From NCBI RefSeq assembly GCF_020687245.1, contig NZ_JAJEQG010000004.1:62001-126000 (forward strand): DNA of 64,000 nt. The letters run 5' to 3'. The stretch is from Faecalibacterium longum CLA-AA-H243. GTDB taxonomy: Bacteria; Bacillota; Clostridia; Oscillospirales; Ruminococcaceae. Below, piece by piece: positions 8,514 through 18,599 of the stretch (the stretch's first letter is position 1; each line of letters begins with the position of its first letter). The notes under the pieces are model-generated. The model was not told the origin of the DNA and did not search any database. It worked only from the letters and a program-made list of their open reading frames with translations. The translations under genes and the position numbers were made by a program.

Positions 8514-10625
8514 ATGAAATGTACTATTCTTCATGAGAGCCGCGGCCGCCTGCGGGTACACGTCTGCAATGTGCGGATGACCCTTCACCGGGCCGATGTG
8601 CTGGAAGCCTATCTGAACCACCACGACGCTGTGAGCAAGGCCAAGGTCTACGAGCGGACGGGCGATGTGGTGGTGTATTACACCGGTGCCCGCAAGGATG
8701 CCGTCGCCGCCCTGAGCACCTACCGTTTCGATGACCCCGATCTGGACGCACTGGTCACCAGCGCCGACAGCCGCCGCATCAATCAGGAATATCAGGAAAA
8801 GATGTATAACCTCTTGGCAGGCCGGGTGCTGCGCGAGCTGTTCCTGCCCGCCCCGCTCAACGCCGCCTACACCGTGTTCCGCTCCATCAAGTTCCTCTGG
8901 AAGGGTGTGTGCTGCCTGTGGCGCCGCAAACTGGAAGTCGAGGTGCTGGATGCTTTGAGCATCGGCGTTTCCATCTTGCGGGGCGATTTCGCCACCGCAG
9001 GCTCCGTCATGTTCCTGCTCAACGTCGGCTCCCTGCTGGAGGAGTGGACCCGCAAGAAGAGCCTCGACGATCTGGCCCGCAGCATGGCCCTGAATGTCGA
9101 TAAGGTCTGGGTCCGCGCACAGGGCACCGAAGTGCTCATGCCGCTCACCAAGGTCCACCCCGGCGATGAGATCGTCGTCCGCTCCGGCAACATGATCCCG
9201 CTGGACGGCACCGTCATCGAGGGCGAAGCCATGGTCAACCAGGCCGCTCTGACCGGCGAGTCCATGCCGGTGCGCAAGACCATCGGTGCCACCGTCTACG
9301 CCGGCACTGTGGTGGAAGAGGGCGAGTGCGTCCTGACCACCAGAGCCGAGGGCGGCGCGAACCGCTACGACAAGATCGTGGCCATGATCGAGGAGTCCGA
9401 GAAGCTGAAGTCCAGCACCGAGAACCGTGCGCTGGCTCTGGCCGATCGTCTGGTCCCCTGGTGCCTCGGTGCTACCGTCGTCACCTACGCCCTGACCCGG
9501 AACGCCACCCGCGCCATCTCCTGCCTGATGGTCGATTTCTCTTGCGCCCTCAAGCTCTCCATGCCGCTGGCCGTTCTTTCTGCCATGCGCGAGTGCGGCG
9601 CAAGCCATATCACCGTCAAGGGCGGCAAGTACCTCGAGACCCTGTCCAAGGCCGACACCATCGTCTTCGACAAGACCGGCACCCTGACCCGCGCTACCCC
9701 CAAGGTGGTCAAGGTCGTCCCCTTCTCCGGCTGCAGCGAGAGCGAGGTTTTGCAGCTGGCCGCCTGCCTCGAGGAGCATTTCCCCCACTCGATGGCCAAC
9801 GCCGTCGTCCGGGAGGCCAAAGAGCGTGGCATCTCCCACGAGGAGATGCACTCCGAGGTGGAGTATATCGTGGCCCACGGCATCGCCAGCCGCGTCAGCG
9901 GTGAGCGGGTCGTCATCGGCAGCCACCACTTCGTCTTTGAGGACGAGCACTGCACCATCCCCGAGGACGAGCGCGAGAAGTTCGATAACCTCGAGCCGGA
10001 GTATTCTCACCTCTATCTGGCCGCTTCGGGCCGTCTGGCCGGCGTCATCTGCATCGCCGACCCGCTACGTCCGGAAGCTTCCCGCGTGCTGCGCGCTCTG
10101 CGCGGCCTCGGCATCACCAACACTGTCATGATGACCGGTGACAGCGAGCGCACCGCCGCCGCCATCGCAAAGCAGGTGGGTGTGGACCAGTTCTTCGCCG
10201 AAGTCCTGCCCGAGGACAAGGCTGCTTTCGTCCAGAAGGCCAAGAGCGAGGGCCACACCGTCGTGATGATCGGCGACGGCATCAACGACTCCCCCGCCCT
10301 CTCTGCCGCTGACGTCGGCATCGCCATCAACTCCGGTGCTGCCATCGCCCGCGAGATCGCAGACGTGACCATCAAGGCCGACAGCCTCGAGGAGCTGGTC
10401 ATCCTCAAGACCATCGCCAACTCCCTGCAGCGCCGTGTCAGCGCCAACTACCACTTTGTGCTGACCTTCAACTCTGCCCTCATCGCGCTGGGGGCAATGG
10501 GCATCCTGCAGCCTGCGTCCTCTGCTATGCTGCACAACCTCTCCACCATCGGCATCAGCCTCAAGAGCATGACCAATCTCATCCCCGAGGAAAAGGCTCA
10601 GAAGGCTCTGGCCGAAAAGAACTAA
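8514..10625 (+). CDS. P1B-type metal-transporting ATPase with an unusual membrane motif
   Basis: This 703-residue ATPase carries TGES (from Thr247), the phosphorylation motif DKTGTLT at Asp386, HFPHS near 425, and GDGINDSPAL from Gly587. The first 75 residues resemble an HMA-like domain but lack the CxxC metal site. In the sixth membrane segment, where P1B pumps carry CPC, this protein has SCALKLSMP with only Cys343. Metal binding must therefore differ from copper or zinc pumps. Transport of manganese or another divalent ion is plausible but not shown. It forms a cassette with the DUF6110 gene just upstream. Confidence 0.85.
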   Translation: MKCTILHESRGRLRVHVCNVRMTLHRADVLEAYLNHHDAVSKAKVYERTGDVVVYYTGARKDAVAALSTYRFDDPDLDALVTSADSRRINQEYQEKMYNLLAGRVLRELFLPAPLNAAYTVFRSIKFLWKGVCCLWRRKLEVEVLDALSIGVSILRGDFATAGSVMFLLNVGSLLEEWTRKKSLDDLARSMALNVDKVWVRAQGTEVLMPLTKVHPGDEIVVRSGNMIPLDGTVIEGEAMVNQAALTGESMPVRKTIGATVYAGTVVEEGECVLTTRAEGGANRYDKIVAMIEESEKLKSSTENRALALADRLVPWCLGATVVTYALTRNATRAISCLMVDFSCALKLSMPLAVLSAMRECGASHITVKGGKYLETLSKADTIVFDKTGTLTRATPKVVKVVPFSGCSESEVLQLAACLEEHFPHSMANAVVREAKERGISHEEMHSEVEYIVAHGIASRVSGERVVIGSHHFVFEDEHCTIPEDEREKFDNLEPEYSHLYLAASGRLAGVICIADPLRPEASRVLRALRGLGITNTVMMTGDSERTAAAIAKQVGVDQFFAEVLPEDKAAFVQKAKSEGHTVVMIGDGINDSPALSAADVGIAINSGAAIAREIADVTIKADSLEELVILKTIANSLQRRVSANYHFVLTFNSALIALGAMGILQPASSAMLHNLSTIGISLKSMTNLIPEEKAQKALAEKN

Positions 10626-10689: not shown

Positions 10690-12168
10690 TTACTCAAGGC
10701 CGATCTGCTGGGCGTACTCTTCCAGCAGCTCCCGCTCGAGGAAGGGGGTCTTGACGCCCTCGCGGTCACGGTAAGTCTCATGGCCCTTGCCGATGACGGC
10801 GATAAGGTCGCCCTCCTGTGCATGGTCAACAGCATAATGCAGGGCGTCGAGGCGGTCAGGAATCTCCACGAACTTTGCGTCCGGGTTGCCCTTGTTCATG
10901 CCCACGCGGATGTCGGCGATGATGTCTTCCACCTTCTCAAAGCGGTTGTTGTCCTCCGTGAGGATGGAGAAATCGGCCATCTTGGCACAAATTTCGCCCA
11001 TGCCGTAGCGGCGCAGCTTGGAGCGGTTGCCGCCGCAGCCGAACACCACCACGAGGCGGTGGGGGGCGTAGGCCCGCAGAGTCGTGAGCAGGCTCTCGGT
11101 GGAGACTTCGTTGTGGGCGTAGTCCAGCAGGATGGTGAACTTCCTGCTGATGGGGACCAGCTCCACGCGGCCCTTGACCACACAGCGGCCCAGACCTTCG
11201 TGGATGGCCTCATCGGGCAGGCCCAGCACCTTGCCCACAGTGAGAGCGGCCAGCGCATTGTAGACGCTGAACTCGCCGGGCATATTCACCTTGACGTCCA
11301 TATCGTCCTTGCCGGAGACATGGAACTGGACGCCGAGGAAGTCGTGGGTGCGGAGCAGCTGGTAAGTACCGGCGCGGTAGTCGGCCTTCTCGCTGCAGCC
11401 GTAGGTCACAAGCTTGCAGGTGTGGCCTTCCAGCAGGGCCTCGGTGTTCTCGTCGTCGATGTTCACGACGCCGGTGGTGCAGCGCTTGAAAAGCTGACCC
11501 TTCCAGCTGCGGTATTCTTCAAAGGTCTTGTGCTCGCCGGGGCCGATGTGGTCGGGAGAGAGGTTCGTGAAGACGCCGATGTCGTAATGGATGCCCGCCA
11601 CGCGGTCCATCATGAGGCCCTGACTGGACACTTCCATCAGCGCCGTATCGCAGCCGGCGTCCAGAAACTCCCGGAAAGTCTTCTGCAGCTCATAGCTCTC
11701 AGGGGTGGTGTTGGCCGTCTCCTGATGGTGGCCGAGGAAGTAGATGCCGTTAGTGCCGATCATGCCCACTTTGCGGCCTGCGGCTTCCAGCACGCTCTTT
11801 ATCATGTGAGTGGTAGTAGTCTTGCCCTTGGTACCGGTGACACCGATCATGGTCATCCGGCGGGAGGGGTTGCCGAACAGGTTGCCGCTCATGAGTGCCA
11901 TCGCATAGCGGCTGCTCTCCACCTTCAGCACGGCAGCACCGGGGACGGTGGAAAGGTCGATGTCGTGCTGGACCACCAGCGCCGTCACGCCGTCGGCCAC
12001 GCACTGGGCGGCGTAGTCGTGGCTGTCCCGCTGGGTACCCACGATGCAGACGAAAAGTCGGCCCGGGGCCGCCTTGCGGCTGTCGTAGATGATGTCCTCG
12101 ATGTCAAGTTCAAGGCTGCCCTGCACCAGCGTATAGGACACGCCCTCCAACAGTTGTTCCAGTTTCAT
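10690..12168 (-). CDS. murE: UDP-N-acetylmuramyl-tripeptide synthetase MurE
   Basis: This 492-residue Mur ligase adds the third stem-peptide residue to UDP-MurNAc-L-Ala-D-Glu in the cytoplasm. It has GVTGTKGKTTTTHM (ATP loop), the N-terminal VCIVGTQRDSHDY region, and the substrate motif DNNRFE. DAP-adding MurE enzymes have DNPR and lysine-adding ones DDPN, so DNNR with its Arg kept suggests meso-diaminopimelate. It is the last gene of the minus-strand cluster, after ftsQ, instead of between ftsI and murF. AAGGAG lies 10 bases before the ATG. Confidence 0.93.
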   Translation of the reverse strand: MKLEQLLEGVSYTLVQGSLELDIEDIIYDSRKAAPGRLFVCIVGTQRDSHDYAAQCVADGVTALVVQHDIDLSTVPGAAVLKVESSRYAMALMSGNLFGNPSRRMTMIGVTGTKGKTTTTHMIKSVLEAAGRKVGMIGTNGIYFLGHHQETANTTPESYELQKTFREFLDAGCDTALMEVSSQGLMMDRVAGIHYDIGVFTNLSPDHIGPGEHKTFEEYRSWKGQLFKRCTTGVVNIDDENTEALLEGHTCKLVTYGCSEKADYRAGTYQLLRTHDFLGVQFHVSGKDDMDVKVNMPGEFSVYNALAALTVGKVLGLPDEAIHEGLGRCVVKGRVELVPISRKFTILLDYAHNEVSTESLLTTLRAYAPHRLVVVFGCGGNRSKLRRYGMGEICAKMADFSILTEDNNRFEKVEDIIADIRVGMNKGNPDAKFVEIPDRLDALHYAVDHAQEGDLIAVIGKGHETYRDREGVKTPFLERELLEEYAQQIGLE

Positions 12169-12182
12169 CGTTCAAATGCTCC

Positions 12183-13697
12183 TTATTGCTGTTCTGCCGC
12201 TGCGGCAGTAGGGTCTTCGGCGGGCGCGGCTTCCGCGCCCTCAGTATCGGGTTCGGTGCCGGAGACTTCCTCCGGCTGGCTCTCGGCTTCTGCCTCCGCC
12301 GGGGCGGCAGGCTCTTCCGGGGCCGTCCAGCCCGAGGGCAGGGTCGGCTCACCCTGTGCAAAGCGGAATTTGCGGCTGGAAGAGGCGCTCAGGTGGCTCA
12401 GATCCAGCATACCGGTGTCGGTGGGCGAGCAGCCCTTGCCGTCCTCGTTGAGCAGGACATACTTTGCCAGCCGGAGTTTGTAGTCCAGCTCATTCAGGGT
12501 ACCCAGAAGCACGCTGATGCGGCCCTGATACAAAAACGCCATCTGCTCCGGGTCCTCGAACTCGATGCGGGTGACATCCGCCCCCAGCTCACTGCTGTCC
12601 AGTGCGGTCAGCAGAGTGTTCAGGGACTCGAGCCGCTTATCCGTGGGCGGTCCGGCCTCGCTGGATGCGGCGCTGTCAGACGCCGCGCTGCCCGAAGACG
12701 CGCCGGACGGTCCTGTCTCAAATTCCAGCTGTGTACCCGGCGTCGTGGATACCGGCTCGCCGCCGCAGAGGATGATAAGGTCCGGCTGGGCCGAATCCTT
12801 ATCCAGTATCTTCAGCCCCGCAGAAAGGCTCAGCCAGCCGCTGGACGTCTGCATGGCGTAGACGGCAGTGGCCGCGTTGGTCCGCACCACTACGGTGTTA
12901 GGGTAATCCCGCTCCACCCGGATATTTTCCAGCAGCGGGAACTGCTTTTCCAGCGCAGCGGCCTTTTCGGCGGGGTCGAAGCTGAAGATGTTCTCTTCCG
13001 CGTGGACGCCCAGCGCCTGCAGGATCTCAGCGCTGGAATAGCCGCCCACCTCCTGCACCACCTCTCCATCGACCGCCACTTCTAAGGTGTTTATCTTGAA
13101 GAGCATGGTCACGGTGAGGTAGACGCCCACCCCGATGACGCAGAGCAGCAGCGCCAGCGCCGTCAGACGGCGGATGGCCCTGCGGCGGCGGACAGCGGCA
13201 CGAGTCAGACGGCGCTTTTTTCTGCCCTCCCGCCGGGCCGGGCTGCGGAGGTTCGCCTCCGTGGGGCGGTAGCGCCCGCCGCTCTGAGGCCTCCGGGCGC
13301 TCTGGACATTCTGGGGCCGCTGGCCATTCTGGGGCCGCTGGCCATTGCGGGGGCGGCTCCCATTTGTGGGGTAGGCGGTCGTGTTCTGACGGGGCCGCTG
13401 GCTTCTCTGCTGGCCCTGACGGCGGCTCTGGTTCTGGTTATTGGGCCGTCGCGCCGTCTGCTGGGGAAACTGGATGCTGTTGTCCGCATATCCCGAGCTG
13501 TGGTTTTCGAACGTCACATTGCCGCCCGAGAAGTCCAGCGTCTGCTCCTGATAGCCCTGCGTCCGGCGACGGTTCTGATTCGAGGGACGCCGGTCCTGCG
13601 TCCAGTCGTAGGCTTTGCGGGACTTTCCCTGCCGCCGGGCGCTGTTCTGCTGGATTGAACTGCTGGGGCGTCGGCTCTTGTTCCGATCCTGCTGCAT
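12183..13697 (-). CDS. ftsQ: FtsQ/DivIB-type division protein with long disordered ends
   Basis: This 504-residue protein has about 170 basic, Gln/Asn/Arg-rich residues at the N-terminus, including tandem 'RPQNGQ' units. One membrane helix follows (LTALALLLCVIGVGVYLTV), then a POTRA domain (INTLEVAVDGEVVQEVGG, LLENIRVERDYPNTVVVR) and a beta domain. The end is an acidic Ala/Glu/Pro tail of about 60 residues. FtsQ/DivIB links FtsL and DivIC in the divisome. Typical family members are 220-300 residues, so both ends are unusually extended. It sits between murG and murE in the cluster. A Ser/Ala-rich insertion lies around residues 320-340. Confidence 0.88.
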   Translation of the reverse strand: MQQDRNKSRRPSSSIQQNSARRQGKSRKAYDWTQDRRPSNQNRRRTQGYQEQTLDFSGGNVTFENHSSGYADNSIQFPQQTARRPNNQNQSRRQGQQRSQRPRQNTTAYPTNGSRPRNGQRPQNGQRPQNVQSARRPQSGGRYRPTEANLRSPARREGRKKRRLTRAAVRRRRAIRRLTALALLLCVIGVGVYLTVTMLFKINTLEVAVDGEVVQEVGGYSSAEILQALGVHAEENIFSFDPAEKAAALEKQFPLLENIRVERDYPNTVVVRTNAATAVYAMQTSSGWLSLSAGLKILDKDSAQPDLIILCGGEPVSTTPGTQLEFETGPSGASSGSAASDSAASSEAGPPTDKRLESLNTLLTALDSSELGADVTRIEFEDPEQMAFLYQGRISVLLGTLNELDYKLRLAKYVLLNEDGKGCSPTDTGMLDLSHLSASSSRKFRFAQGEPTLPSGWTAPEEPAAPAEAEAESQPEEVSGTEPDTEGAEAAPAEDPTAAAAEQQ

Positions 13698-13756: not shown

Positions 13757-14884
13757 TCACGGCGTCTTGACCAGTTTCATCAGGGCGTCGGCGATGCGGT
13801 CGAGGCTGTCGTCCACCGAAAGGGTGCGGGCGTTCCTGCCCATGGCAGCCAGCTTGCCCGGCTCGGCCAGCAGGCCGGAGACGGTCGAGACCAGCTTCTC
13901 GCCGGTCAGATCCTTTTCCTCGATGACCACAGCGGCACCGGCCTTCTGCAGCTCCATGGCGTTGTAATACTGGTGGTTCTCCGCCACATTGGGGCTGGGG
14001 ATGAGGATGGCGGCGCGGCCCTCGGCTTCCAGTTCGGCCAGCGTCAGCGCACCGGCACGGCTGATGACGAGGTTGGCAGCGGCCAGCAGCTCGGGCATAT
14101 TGTTGATATATTCCTTCACCACGAGGCTCTCGCCGGGAGCAAAGCCTTTTTCCTTTTCGAGATTTTGAAACAGCTCCACGCCATACTGTCCGGTGGCGTG
14201 GATGTGGAGCACAGGCTTGTGCTCTTTCTGCTCCCATGCGCAGAGGTCGGCCACCACCTCATTGACGCGGCGAGCGCCGAGGCTTCCCCCGAAGGAGAGG
14301 ATGACGGTGCGGTCACCGGCACCCAGCTGGGCGCGGATGGCGTCCCGCTCCCCTGCCTTCTCGAACACTTCAGGCCGCACCGGGTTGCCCACGACCTGCG
14401 TCTTTTCGGGCGCACCCAGCTTTTCCACAGCGGCAGGCACGGCGGCGAACACGATGTCCACGTCCGGGGCCAGCAGCTTGTTGGTCACGCCGGGGAAAGC
14501 GTTCTGCTCATGGATGGCGGTCTTGATGCCCTTCTTGGCGGCGCAGCGCACCACCGGGCCGGAGACGTAGCCGCCGCAGCCGATGACGAGGTCGGGCTGC
14601 ACTTCCTTCATCATGGCCCGGGCTTTCGGGCCGGAGAGGGCCAGGTTCCAGAGGGTGATGATGTTCCGCTTGATGTTGTTCAGGGAGAGCTTACGCTGGA
14701 AACCGGTGATCTCGATGTGGTGGAAGGGGTAGCCCGCCTGGGTCACAAGGCGGTATTCCATGCCCTCCTTCCGGCCTGCAAAGTGTATCTCGGCGGACGG
14801 GTCGGCCTTTTTGATGGCTCCCGCGATGGCCAGAGCCGGGTTGATATGTCCGGCAGTTCCGCCGGCTGCGATAAGTACACGCAT
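13757..14884 (-). CDS. murG: UDP-GlcNAc : lipid I transferase MurG
   Basis: This 375-residue GT28 glycosyltransferase converts lipid I to lipid II on the inner face of the membrane. It begins MRVLIAAGGTAGHINPAL with the glycine-rich acceptor loop. GCGGYVSGPVV, HEQNAFPGVTNKLL, SFGGSLGARRVNEVV and SRAGALTLAELEAEGRAAILIPSP (the UDP-GlcNAc site) follow. All hallmark motifs are intact. AAGGAGG lies upstream of the ATG. It is between ftsW and ftsQ as in most division clusters. Confidence 0.96.
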   Translation of the reverse strand: MRVLIAAGGTAGHINPALAIAGAIKKADPSAEIHFAGRKEGMEYRLVTQAGYPFHHIEITGFQRKLSLNNIKRNIITLWNLALSGPKARAMMKEVQPDLVIGCGGYVSGPVVRCAAKKGIKTAIHEQNAFPGVTNKLLAPDVDIVFAAVPAAVEKLGAPEKTQVVGNPVRPEVFEKAGERDAIRAQLGAGDRTVILSFGGSLGARRVNEVVADLCAWEQKEHKPVLHIHATGQYGVELFQNLEKEKGFAPGESLVVKEYINNMPELLAAANLVISRAGALTLAELEAEGRAAILIPSPNVAENHQYYNAMELQKAGAAVVIEEKDLTGEKLVSTVSGLLAEPGKLAAMGRNARTLSVDDSLDRIADALMKLVKTP

Positions 14885-14911: not shown

Positions 14912-16195
14912 TCAATATCCCATGTTGGGGTCGAGCCGGATGGTGTTATTGGACTTTTCTTTTTCCCGCTGTTCCCGCAGGGCGCGGAGATTCTCCCGCT
15001 CGAGGCGGGCGCGCTCGCCGCCCCGGCCGATGTTTATCATCACGCCCATCTCGGCCAGCAGCAGGATGAGACTGGTGCCGCCGGAGGAGAAGAAGGGCAG
15101 CGAGATGCCGGTGTTGGGCAGGGTGTTGGTGACGACCGCGATGTTGCAGAACACCTGCCACGCAATTTGGGCCATGATGCCGATGCCCACCAGTGTGCAG
15201 TAGCGGTTCTCGGCGTGGAAGGCCAGCCACAGCCCCTGCACGAGGAAGAGCACGAAGAGCAGGATGACGATGACGGCACCCACGAAGCCCAGCTCCTCGC
15301 ACACGACGCTGAAGATGAAGTCGTTGGTGCTCTCGGGGAGCCAGAGCTGTTTTTCGATGCTGTTGCCGAGGCCGAGGCCGGTGACACCGCCGGAGCCGAT
15401 GGCGTAAAGGCTCTGCAGGGTCTGGTCGGTCATCTTGCTCAGGTCGTGGGTCCAGCCGTCCAGACGGCTCTGTAAGTACGGGATGGAGTCGATGTGCTCC
15501 AGCACGGTGCGGAGCAGCAGCACAGCGGACGCGCCGCCCGCCCAGGTGATGATGCCGCCGCTGCCGCCCAGCAGCAGGATGGTGCCGCAGATGGCCGTCG
15601 TCAGGACGATGCCGGACATATGCGGCTCAAGCATGAGCAGGATGACCACCGGGATGAGGGGCAGCAGCGGGACGATGAGTTCCCGCACGATGCGCTGATA
15701 GAGCCACTGGCCTGCCGGGACGCGCCGCCCGGAGGCGGGGTCCAGCTTTTCCAGATGGGGCGCTTTCGCGGCCAGATGGGCCGTGAGCAGTATCATCTCA
15801 AACTTTGCGATCTCCGATACCTGAATGGTAAAGCCGATGCGCAGCCAGCGGCGGCAGCCGTTGAGGGGCGCACTGAACAGCACCGCGATGAGCATCACGA
15901 TGCAGACGACATAGCCCGGCCCGACCATCCTGCGCAGAAAGCGATGGTCGATGCGAGAGAAGAGCAGCATGACCGCGAAACCCAGACCCAGGCAGAACAC
16001 CTGCGACTTGATGTAGTAGAAGCTGTCGCCCATCCGCAGGTAGCCCGTGGTGTAGCTGGCACTGAACAGCATGATGAGTCCGAACACGATGATGACTGCC
16101 AGCGTCGCCAGCCAGTTGATGAGCACCTGCGGCCAGGGGCCGGGGCTCGACAAGATGGCAAAGGACTCAGACTTTTTTCTCCGGATGGTCGCCAT
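14912..16195 (-). CDS. ftsW: SEDS glycosyltransferase FtsW
   Basis: This multi-spanning protein (about 427 residues) polymerises lipid II at the septum with its class B PBP. FGLIMLFSASYTTGY near the N-terminus, PHMSGIVLTTAICG, YAIGSGGVTGLGLGNSIEK, STNDFIFSVVCEELGF and LPFFSSGGTSLILLLAEMG are typical of FtsW/RodA. The Asp of the STNDFIF loop is kept. Two start codons are possible; ATG 16195 has AAGGAGG at 8 bases, while ATG 16201 is too close to it. Its place in a cell-division cluster favours FtsW over RodA. Confidence 0.93.
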   Translation of the reverse strand: MATIRRKKSESFAILSSPGPWPQVLINWLATLAVIIVFGLIMLFSASYTTGYLRMGDSFYYIKSQVFCLGLGFAVMLLFSRIDHRFLRRMVGPGYVVCIVMLIAVLFSAPLNGCRRWLRIGFTIQVSEIAKFEMILLTAHLAAKAPHLEKLDPASGRRVPAGQWLYQRIVRELIVPLLPLIPVVILLMLEPHMSGIVLTTAICGTILLLGGSGGIITWAGGASAVLLLRTVLEHIDSIPYLQSRLDGWTHDLSKMTDQTLQSLYAIGSGGVTGLGLGNSIEKQLWLPESTNDFIFSVVCEELGFVGAVIVILLFVLFLVQGLWLAFHAENRYCTLVGIGIMAQIAWQVFCNIAVVTNTLPNTGISLPFFSSGGTSLILLLAEMGVMINIGRGGERARLERENLRALREQREKEKSNNTIRLDPNMGY

Positions 16196-16223
16196 CCGCA
16201 TTCCCTCCTTATCGGGTCCCGGC

Positions 16224-17204
16224 TCAGCTGGCCCGCGCCACCTGCAAGGTCAGCGCAAGGCCCAGCATTGCCAGGACTCCAAAAATATAAAAGATATTCA
16301 CCGGGTCAAAGCCCCGCTTTTCCAGCCAGCGGTGGAGCGGCGCGGTGCCGAACAGCTGCCGCCGCCCGCCGGAGGCTTTCCAGACAATGATCTGCAGAGC
16401 CACCATGCCGCCTTCCAGCCAGTAGGGCAGAGCCAGCGGGAGCGTCAGCCCGGGCCAGCCGACGCTCAGCGGCACACAGCCCAGCGCACCGGCTAAAAAC
16501 TGGCATCCCACTGCACCGGGGCGGAGCTTTGCGGGGTAGAAATTCCAGAGCAGGAAGGCCATCAATGCCCCGGCCAGCGCCGCCGGGAGGACGCCCAGCG
16601 GGAACCAGCCCAAGAGGGTCATGGCCGTCATGAGACCCAGCATGGCGATGAAGGCGCAGCCGCAGACCGTGCCGTCCATGCCGTCGGCGGTGCGGGCGCT
16701 CTCGGCCAGCGCCACTAAAATCGCCAGCCAGACCACCGGGGCCAGCGGCCCGAGGGTGCAGTAGCCGACGCCCGGCAGGGCCAGCCCATCGGGCAGGCAG
16801 TGGTTCAGCCCCAGCAGGGCCAGCACCAGCGTGCCGGAGGCCGCTTCCAGCGCCAGCCGCACCGGGCGGCGCAGCCCCAGCGGTGACCGATGCCGCAGCC
16901 GGACCACATCGTCCGCGAGGCCCACGGCCCCGAAGCAGAGCGCCCCGAACAGGGCGATGAGCAGCCGAGTGGTCAGCAGGCTCTCAGTCCCCAGCAGCTC
17001 CGGCTGGGCGACACAGGCCGCTGTCCAGCCGACGCCTACCGCCGCCAGCGTCCCCACCATCAGGCAGAGCCCGCCCATCGTGGGCGGCTCATTTTCCTCC
17101 TGCTGGACGCGGAACGCCCGCAGCAGCGGCGTCATCAAATTCCCGAGCGCCGCCGTGAGGACGAACCCCAGCGTTGAGGCGACGATCAAGGCAAAACGAA
17201 TCAT
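16224..17204 (-). CDS. MraY-like protein lacking catalytic residues
   Basis: This 326-residue multi-spanning protein occupies the mraY position, between murF and ftsW. It aligns without gaps to MraY across NFYPAKLRPGAVGCQFLAG, which in E. coli reads NTYPAQVFMGDVGSLALGG. The catalytic Asp267 of E. coli is Ala231 here. The HHH motif of 'APIHHH' is APLHRW (His291 only). The Asn residues before TDGLDG are gone (ESARTADGMDG). The Lys of KAGTPTMGG is replaced by an acidic stretch (EENEPPTMGG). The first Asp pair (98-99) is kept. Real MraY needs the lost Asp, so this is probably inactive as a lipid I synthase or does something else. Confidence 0.85.
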   Translation of the reverse strand: MIRFALIVASTLGFVLTAALGNLMTPLLRAFRVQQEENEPPTMGGLCLMVGTLAAVGVGWTAACVAQPELLGTESLLTTRLLIALFGALCFGAVGLADDVVRLRHRSPLGLRRPVRLALEAASGTLVLALLGLNHCLPDGLALPGVGYCTLGPLAPVVWLAILVALAESARTADGMDGTVCGCAFIAMLGLMTAMTLLGWFPLGVLPAALAGALMAFLLWNFYPAKLRPGAVGCQFLAGALGCVPLSVGWPGLTLPLALPYWLEGGMVALQIIVWKASGGRRQLFGTAPLHRWLEKRGFDPVNIFYIFGVLAMLGLALTLQVARAS

Positions 17205-17225: not shown

Positions 17226-18599
17226 TTACTTTGCGCAGACGGGATAAAACAGGGCCAGCGCCTTTTCCAGTGCCATGCCCCGGCTGGCCTTCACCAGCAG
17301 AGCGTCGCCCGGGGCCATCCGGGCCAGCAGAGCGTCTGCAGCCTGCTGGTAATCCTCGGCGTGGACGACGTCGGCGAGGCCCGCGTCCTTTGCAGCCTTT
17401 GCCGTCCGTGCGGCCTCGGGGCCGTAGGTGACAAGAGCGGTCAGCCCGGCCTCTGCGGCCTGACGGCCCAGCTCTTCATGAGCGGGCGCGCTCATCTCGC
17501 CCAGTTCCAGCATATCGCCCAGCAGAGCGAAACGGCGCTTGCAGGGGTACTCTTTGAACATCGCCAGCGCAGCCTTCATGCTGTCGGGGTTGGCGTTGTA
17601 GCAGTCCTCGATGACGTCCATGCTGCCTGCGTGGACGACCTTCTGGCGCATACCGGTCTGCTCGAAATCGGCCAGACCCGCGATGACGCCCTCGGGCGCG
17701 AGGCCCAGACGGGTGGCAGCGGCGTAAGCAGCCAGCGCGTTCGCCACATTGTGACGTCCCATCGCAGGAATCGTCACCTCATAGCTGCCTGCATTTTTAT
17801 CGCAGAGGGTGAAGGCCATGCCGTCGCCCTCCTGCCGGACATCGAGGGCGCAAACGTCGGCATTCTCGTCGCCGAGGCTGAACCACACGGGCCGGACATG
17901 GGTGGGCAGAGCGGCTTTGCGCAGGAAGGGGTCGTCGCCGTTGAGCACGAGGGGCGAACCCTCGGCAAGGCCGGCGCAGATTTCCAGCTTCGCCTTGCAG
18001 ATGTTCTCCTGACTGCCCAGATTGCCGATGTGGGACACGCCGATGCAGGTGATGATGCCCACATCGGGGCGGGCGCACTTTGCCAGACGCTCGATCTCAC
18101 CGGCGTGGCTCATGCCCATCTCGACGACAGCGTACTCCGTATCCCTGCCGATGCGGAACATGGTGCGGGGCAGGCCCAGCTCATTGTTCTGGTTGCCCTC
18201 GGTCTTGATGGTATTGCCAAAGCCCGCGATGGCGGCGTAGGTCATCTGCTTGGTGGTGGTCTTTCCCACACTGCCGGTGACGCCCACCACCTTCGGGTGG
18301 AACTGGCTGCGGTAGTTCGCGCCCATGACCATCATGGCGTGGTAGCTGTCGGGGCTGATAACAGCCTTTTCAGCCGGGACGCCCTCCACCGGGTGGTTGA
18401 GGACGACATAGGCCGCGCCCTCTTCCAGCGCCTTGGCCGCGAAATCGTGGCCGTCGAAGCGCTCACCGGGGAAAGCCACAAAGATGCAGCCGGGGCAGAC
18501 CTCGCGGCTGTCGGTGGTCACGAGGCCGATGGGCTGGCTGTCGGCGAAGCCCTCGGGGGCAAGGCCTTTCAAAAGCAGGTCTGCTGCGATTTTTTCCAT
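17226..18599 (-). CDS. murF: UDP-MurNAc-tripeptide : D-Ala-D-Ala ligase MurF
   Basis: This 457-residue Mur ligase completes the pentapeptide precursor. It has SREVCPGCIFVAFPGERFDGHDF at the N-terminus, ATP loop GVTGSVGKTTTKQM near residue 110, EMGMSHAGEI, and CYNANPDSMKAAL toward the C-terminus, which is characteristic of MurF. The open frame continues upstream to 18956, but the family start is the ATG at 18599, with AAGGAG 7 bases before it. The stop of the upstream PBP gene is 11 bases away, so the genes are tightly linked. Confidence 0.95.
   Translation of the reverse strand: MEKIAADLLLKGLAPEGFADSQPIGLVTTDSREVCPGCIFVAFPGERFDGHDFAAKALEEGAAYVVLNHPVEGVPAEKAVISPDSYHAMMVMGANYRSQFHPKVVGVTGSVGKTTTKQMTYAAIAGFGNTIKTEGNQNNELGLPRTMFRIGRDTEYAVVEMGMSHAGEIERLAKCARPDVGIITCIGVSHIGNLGSQENICKAKLEICAGLAEGSPLVLNGDDPFLRKAALPTHVRPVWFSLGDENADVCALDVRQEGDGMAFTLCDKNAGSYEVTIPAMGRHNVANALAAYAAATRLGLAPEGVIAGLADFEQTGMRQKVVHAGSMDVIEDCYNANPDSMKAALAMFKEYPCKRRFALLGDMLELGEMSAPAHEELGRQAAEAGLTALVTYGPEAARTAKAAKDAGLADVVHAEDYQQAADALLARMAPGDALLVKASRGMALEKALALFYPVCAK

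Follow-up and report, generated by a model that had tools for sequence, protein, structure and literature searches.

Lipid I synthesis in Faecalibacterium has probably passed to a divergent MraY-superfamily enzyme, with a catalytically degenerate MraY homologue retained in the cell-wall operon

We analysed a 64,000-nucleotide stretch of the Faecalibacterium longum CLA-AA-H243 genome (hereafter the window; contig NZ_JAJEQG010000004.1, positions 62,001 to 126,000) that carries a cluster of cell-wall genes on its reverse strand. The cluster contains murF (17226..18599; TIGR01143, 397 bits against a cut-off of 288.6, with the start codon chosen inside a longer open frame), a gene for a 326-residue MraY-superfamily protein that we call gene A (16224..17204), ftsW (14912..16201; best NCBIfam match TIGR02614, 261 bits, below the cut-off of 337.5), murG (13757..14884; TIGR01133, 264 bits against 250.25), a gene for an FtsQ-type protein with a POTRA_1 domain (12183-13697) and murE (10690-12168). 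The next gene past murE, on the forward strand (8514-10625), encodes a P-type (E1-E2) ATPase of 703 residues. The FtsQ-type protein has a long Gln/Arg/Asn-rich N-terminal stretch and an Ala/Glu/Pro-rich tail. In the Faecalibacterium clusters that we read, murE lies downstream of ftsQ wherever the locus extends far enough, unlike in most other genera read, where it lies between spoVD and murF.

Gene A occupies the position of mraY in the dcw cluster, in a tight operon, with 21 nt separating it from murF upstream and 22 nt from ftsW downstream. The coordinates and the family matches of its neighbours confirmed the statement of the initial annotation that the gene keeps its place between murF and ftsW. 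Its product scored 64.3 bits against PF00953 (cut-off 27), and the five relatives of solved structure that we found were all MraY. The match to the mraY equivalog model TIGR00445 reached 76.4 bits, below the cut-off of 192.05, and ran over model positions 30-310 of 321; at 326 residues the protein is full length, as had also been claimed. A crude hydropathy profile gave 9 peaks, versus 13 for E. coli MraY (ten transmembrane helices are expected); a full set of membrane segments is plausible because the alignment covers nearly the whole protein.

The gene had been singled out for the loss of MraY catalytic residues, and alignment bore out each of the losses described. The E. coli segment QVFMGDVGSLA aligns without gaps to KLRPGAVGCQF, which places Ala231 (16512..16514, reverse strand, as for all residues below) at the Mg-binding Asp267. 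The HHH motif of MraY (PXHHHXEXXG; PMC5039524) reads H291-R292-W293 (16326..16334), the conserved N189 and N192 are replaced by E168 and R171 (16692..16703), and the Lys of KAGTPTMGG (E. coli K68) is the acidic E37. E. coli K119 and K133 correspond to R102 and R116. The protein retains the loop A motif P41-T-M-G-G45 (17070..17084), the Asp pair D98-D99 (E. coli D115/D116; 16908..16913) and D174/D177 (E. coli D195/D198). The residues reported to be catalytically important in B. subtilis MraY are D98, D99, K116, N171, D174, D231, H289 and H290 (PMC5039524), the A. aeolicus equivalent of D231 being a Mg2+ site (PMC4790310, PMC5039524). Four of these eight are intact in the window protein (D98, D99, D174 and the first His); the others have become Arg (K116, N171 and the second His) or Ala (D231). 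Gene A thus combines homology to an enzyme with loss of catalytic residues, one mark of a pseudoenzyme.

We then read gene A across 31 Faecalibacterium genomes. It formed a full-length open frame in 27; the remaining four had a broken frame (G010), a contig end (G023), no match to A (G017) or fragments (G018). In G010, a 79% complete genome, A lies in two overlapping frames (L218), reflecting a break or a sequencing error. With the frame open in 27 of the 31 genomes, 8 of them single-contig, we ruled out a frameshift or misassembly as the source of the lost motifs. Asp267 was missing from 26 of the 27 full-length sequences. The exception, G008, keeps Asp267 (GDTGS) and N189 and has His at N192, HAE for HHH and Glu at D115; this genome also carries the second superfamily gene described below, and we read its A as an intermediate of degeneration.

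The conservation pattern was scored in 26 sequences, leaving out one cut sequence (L144), the broken frame L218 and G008 (with which the set numbers 27). The Mg-binding Asp occurred in none of them, and its column held S 8, A 8, C 4, R 3, K 2 and M 1 times. The first His of the HHH motif was present in 11/26, the second and third in 0/26, and the K68 column contained P 19, E 4, D 2 and Q 1. An alignment with 54 canonical MraYs has 53 columns in which at least 95% of them agree. Of these columns, 14 were kept in at least 90% of the 26 sequences; the 39 others include D267, N189, N192 and the second and third His. Some positions were held firmly: P41, G44 and G45 in 26/26, D99 in 26/26, and D98 in 21/26, the rest having Glu. 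Arg stood at K133 (B. subtilis K116) in 26/26 and at B. subtilis N171 in 25/26. New residues were also fixed at former catalytic positions, namely E168 (26/26), R171 (25/26) and W293 (25/26).

Such a pattern could mean that A is now another enzyme, whose new active site would consist of E168, R171, R116, D99 and W293, each present in 25-26 of the 26 sequences. These residues do not include an obvious metal-binding set, and the other lineages with a degenerate A carry different replacements, so there is no shared new site; we consider this reading highly improbable. The differing replacements indicate that catalysis was lost independently in these lineages. The same columns bear on the suggestion of the initial annotation that lipid I synthesis might use another residue set, in which case A would still be the synthase, with a different metal site. 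In favour of this, the window protein retains D98 and D99, and the two Lys are conservatively replaced by Arg. Against it, six different residues fill the Asp267 column, the second His is never found and D174 is present in only 10/26.

A search of the genome for a second mraY with GDxGS and HHH motifs, also suggested at the outset, returned one gene, which has GDAGS and, in place of HHH, HDH. This gene, B (G000:C9:52862-53806), is the only other PF00953 match in the genome (E <=0.001) and lies far from gene A. Each of the eight single-contig genomes of the genus likewise has two PF00953 genes. B carries DD, N..N, DGxDG, MGDAGS and the first His, and D97, D98, K109, N159, N162, D165, D168, G220, D221 and H281 are invariant in 41 B sequences. 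Mapped by alignment and residue count, B covers seven of the eight important B. subtilis residues, all invariant in the 41 sequences; the eighth, the middle His, is Asp282 in 41/41, and the third His is present in at least 90%. The counterpart of E. coli K133 is present and that of K119 is missing. Among NCBIfam models B matched mraY best (TIGR00445, 88.8 bits, below the equivalog cut-off of 192.05), followed by archaeal MraY (NF053644, 57.3 bits) and wecA (35.2 bits).

In a superfamily tree, 51 B sequences grouped in a single clade whose branch is 3.8 changes per column long (the program gave a long-branch warning), apart from canonical MraY and also from proteins that we take, from their motifs and general knowledge, to be WecA/TagO-like. 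This long separate branch indicates that B is not a recent copy of A. We found no fixed gene context for B in the loci compared, its neighbours varying by genus with the exception of one clade. In that clade (L251, 3515-8249) B lies beside genes for a lysylphosphatidylglycerol-synthase-type membrane protein, a CDP-alcohol phosphatidyltransferase, a phosphatidylserine decarboxylase and an amylase-type protein. In another genome (G263; L186, 3-1412) a murE-like gene, whose product is 34% identical to the window MurE, lies upstream of B.

We wondered how the states of A and B are distributed among relatives. PF00953 matches were found in 292 of 297 sampled genomes of the host family (completeness >=90%); in the five others murF was missing, fragmentary or at a contig end. 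B was present in 68 of the 297 genomes, from 16 of 95 genera. Among these 68, 46 had a degenerate A, 13 had none, 6 had a canonical A and 1 an A that is canonical apart from D267N; two had an unreadable murF-ftsW interval at contig ends (G216, G314). The D267N protein (G086; L183, L080) is a canonical-looking MraY with Asn at Asp267, Asp at N189 and an intact HHH, and possibly represents a first step of degeneration. Of the 229 genomes without B, 223 had a PF00953 match at E <=4.9e-30, the level given by canonical MraY, with motifs read in the aligned canonical rows, a subset of the 223. One genome departed from this pattern: G101 (L141) has a degenerate A (GESG) and no B detected in its 60 contigs at 99% completeness, which is either an assembly gap or a real exception. 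In wider samples, B at E <=1e-30 occurred in 3 of 147 genomes taken across the order, each of which belongs to the host family, and a model built from B found it in 11 of 291 genomes taken across the class; nine of these 11 belong to f52 and f67, two families other than the host's. At the mraY place in genera g120 (L138, 4369-5352; no Pfam match) and g107 (L174, 4797-5717; 17.5 bits) we observed open frames almost unrecognisable as MraY.

In some genomes with B there is no mraY at all. In genus g80 (7/7), in g70 (5/5 readable genomes, G314 being unreadable) and in G317, murF runs directly into ftsW, and no PF00953 match other than B exceeds the cut-off. Raising the E-value limit to 10 added only sub-threshold matches in very long or broken frames; frames of about 945 residues with weak matches in g70 and g120 (two genomes, L137 and L140) matched none of the query proteins. 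The same arrangement recurs outside the order: in genus g230 of family f67 (7/7), nothing lies between murF and ftsW, and a B-like protein is the sole match over the cut-off. We did not count one f52 genome (G592), whose murF sits at a contig end. The B-only genomes of g80, g70 (readable) and f67, which are 96-100% complete, contain murE, murF, murG, ftsW and spoVD, so that they presumably make peptidoglycan, and in gene content B is the only visible candidate for their lipid I step.

These genomes bear on both genes. If A made lipid I through other residues, it should not be absent from relatives that retain the other pathway genes and have only B for this step. Because the Asp column is free to vary, and because A has been deleted where murE, murF, murG, ftsW and B are kept, we regard another residue set within A as scarcely credible. 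The opposite arrangement, in which B transfers sugar phosphates for some other polymer while an unrecognised activity makes lipid I, would accord with the distance of B from MraY (3.8 changes per column), its HDH, its score below the mraY cut-off and its location outside the cluster. It would leave unexplained why B is the sole PF00953 match over the cut-off in genomes of g80, readable g70 and f67 that have murE, murF, murG, ftsW and spoVD, and why B prefers the mraY model (88.8 bits) over archaeal MraY and wecA (57.3 and 35.2); we hold it to be very unlikely. Where murF is followed directly by ftsW, B is the sole superfamily member over the cut-off; we therefore think it very probable that B makes lipid I, as its residues would also suggest.

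If B has taken over the reaction, A might be no more than a decaying relic of the displaced enzyme, its frame still open through recent loss or through translational coupling of murF and ftsW. A has been deleted in g70, g80 and G317, is barely recognisable in g107 (17.5 bits) and in g120 (no Pfam match), and evolves faster than its neighbours. Median dN/dS values over pairs within the genus were 0.456 for A, 0.345 for FtsW, 0.272 for MurF, 0.164 for MurG and 0.155 for B (59 pairs); Over the 270 of 351 genus pairs that a dS filter retained, where synonymous sites are near saturation, A thus shows the weakest constraint of the five genes. For the closest Faecalibacterium pairs the constraint on A was similar to that on FtsW, and outside the genus dN/dS of A was about 1.4 to 4 times that of FtsW. 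The dN/dS test, which the initial annotation had proposed, nevertheless revealed purifying selection on the protein in all 19 close pairs, hand-picked among close relatives from nine genera (Nei-Gojobori counts, uncorrected for codon usage; dN/dS 0.07-0.34, Fisher p <=4.2e-11 each). The lowest-dS pairs of g46 and g72 gave higher values for A, 0.61 and 0.45. Coupling alone would not preserve an amino-acid sequence, and neither the full-length frames in 27/31 genomes nor the new residues fixed at former catalytic sites are expected of a relic. We conclude that gene A is probably not plain debris and that the relic explanation is unlikely.

Replacement appears to have happened more than once. On a tree of five cluster proteins, parsimony counted 10 changes of state for B and 6 for the degenerate-or-lost state of A, counts that give no direction and come from 62 rows that over-sample B-bearing genera, two of them with less than half of the columns filled. 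In nine independent pairs differing in B, separated by well-supported branches, A differed in the same way in 5.4 on average, in the opposite way in 0, and was undecided in 3.6; the sign test (median p 0.0625) is not significant by itself. The B sequences of f52 were nested among those of the host family, and an AU test on a B tree thinned to 48 rows rejected holding the host-family sequences together without the f52 ones (p 0.0138), so that horizontal spread of B is likely, if modestly tested. Other AU tests gave no rejection (f52 pair 0.07, g1+g40 0.2, g76 pair 0.22, big clade without g46 0.18). A phage vehicle was considered and rejected: two GenBank records labelled Bacteriophage sp. (L298, L299) carry B-like genes of 49-53% identity, and ten neighbouring open frames that we scanned include DNA polymerase III delta-subunit-family, tetrapyrrole-type methylase and glycosidase genes and no phage family. 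With neighbours of bacterial type, these records look like mislabelled fragments of bacterial chromosomes. Plasmid records gave no match covering 80% of B.

Taken together, these results make it probable that B displaced MraY and that A persists as a pseudoenzyme in the murF-mraY-ftsW-murG operon. In an ancestor of Faecalibacterium, the divergent superfamily enzyme B would have taken over the lipid I step; with A freed from catalysis, its Mg-binding Asp, its HHH motif and the two Asn residues would have disappeared, while the protein stayed in the operon as a membrane protein under purifying selection. Two proposals of the initial annotation thus gain in strength: that A is non-catalytic (the annotation envisaged a divisome partner), strongly supported by the residue losses and joined here by selection on the protein, and that lipid I is made by another enzyme. 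For the latter, the genome carries a divergent MraY-like gene that in several relatives has no other superfamily member over the cut-off beside it. Among the points against displacement are G101, with its degenerate A and no B found, and the departure of B from MraY: the Asp at the middle His, the missing counterpart of K119 and the sub-cut-off score.

What might A be doing? We infer that it now has a non-catalytic role, probably structural or lipid-binding; most likely it would serve MurF, MurG, FtsW or B as a membrane partner that docks them or binds carrier lipid. This role cannot be universal, because A is dispensable in g70, g80 and G317. A cytoplasmic partner has been suggested to be needed at MraY loop A, and Mur enzymes are reported to recognise MraY, with a MurF-MraY-MurG complex suggested (PMC4929429). 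In A. aeolicus MraY, W253/F254, at the dimer and carrier-lipid interface, are reported to have been changed along with R340 so as to disrupt dimerisation and the binding of carrier lipid (PMC9046198). L219 and W220 of A align with W253/F254, in the segment L219-W-N-F-Y-P-A225 (16530..16550), where five of the seven positions (L219, W220, F222, P224, A225) are invariant in 26/26. R340 is Ile307 in A, and this position is uninformative because C. bolteae MraY itself has Val there. A docking or carrier-lipid role for A, possibly with B, fits these observations. More tentatively, MraY may possess a non-catalytic job that is separable from catalysis and was kept alone after several independent takeovers by B, the cleft being re-tooled, in Faecalibacterium with E168, R171 and W293; the job would be docking MurF, MurG and FtsW or holding the carrier lipid at the dimer interface, with A and B perhaps forming a mixed dimer.

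MraY is generally treated as a universal, essential target, and Faecalibacterium is a common gut genus. The gene that annotation would call mraY in Faecalibacterium is very probably dead, and an HDH-type enzyme very probably does the reaction. Annotation, essentiality studies and predictions of the effect of MraY inhibitors on gut commensals are all affected. Because catalysis was lost repeatedly while the protein was retained, whether MraY has a scaffolding role becomes a directly testable question. If the non-catalytic job is indeed separable, these lineages are natural separation-of-function mutants of an essential antibiotic target. In the titles and abstracts of the open-licence literature searched, neither a dead MraY kept in the cluster nor an HDH-type replacement is described.

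Compared with canonical MraY (E. coli, B. subtilis, A. aeolicus 4J72, C. bolteae 5JNQ), A shares the operon position, a similar length, near full-length alignment and, in the window protein, DD, DGxDG and the loop A PTMGG; neither the Mg-binding Asp nor the HHH motif is present in A, and the two Asn and the two Lys are also missing. B shares DD, N..N, DGxDG, GD.GS, the first His and the K133 counterpart, and differs in its deep divergence, its HDH, the missing K119 counterpart and its location outside the cluster. The archaeal MraY-like proteins of pseudomurein synthesis, as reported in PMC11915815, resemble B in forming an MraY-like branch outside bacterial MraY, and B matches NF053644 at 57.3 bits; B, however, matches bacterial mraY better (88.8 bits), and our model of B was searched within its class. 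For A, a parallel is offered by the trypanosome prozyme (PMC5201418), reported as a catalytically dead paralogue that the genome retains along with its active counterpart. In that pair the inactive subunit activates its partner, whereas A and B, putative partners at most, are distant relatives rather than recent duplicates. The nearest precedent that we found is MglA, reported as an alternative MurG in Kitasatospora and Streptomyces (PMC8092295). As proposed for B, a distant homologue encoded elsewhere in the genome can substitute for a normally essential, cluster-encoded enzyme of the lipid cycle. By that account, however, every strain still has murG in its cluster, with MglA as an addition, whereas here the cluster gene is dead or gone and B is apparently the sole enzyme.
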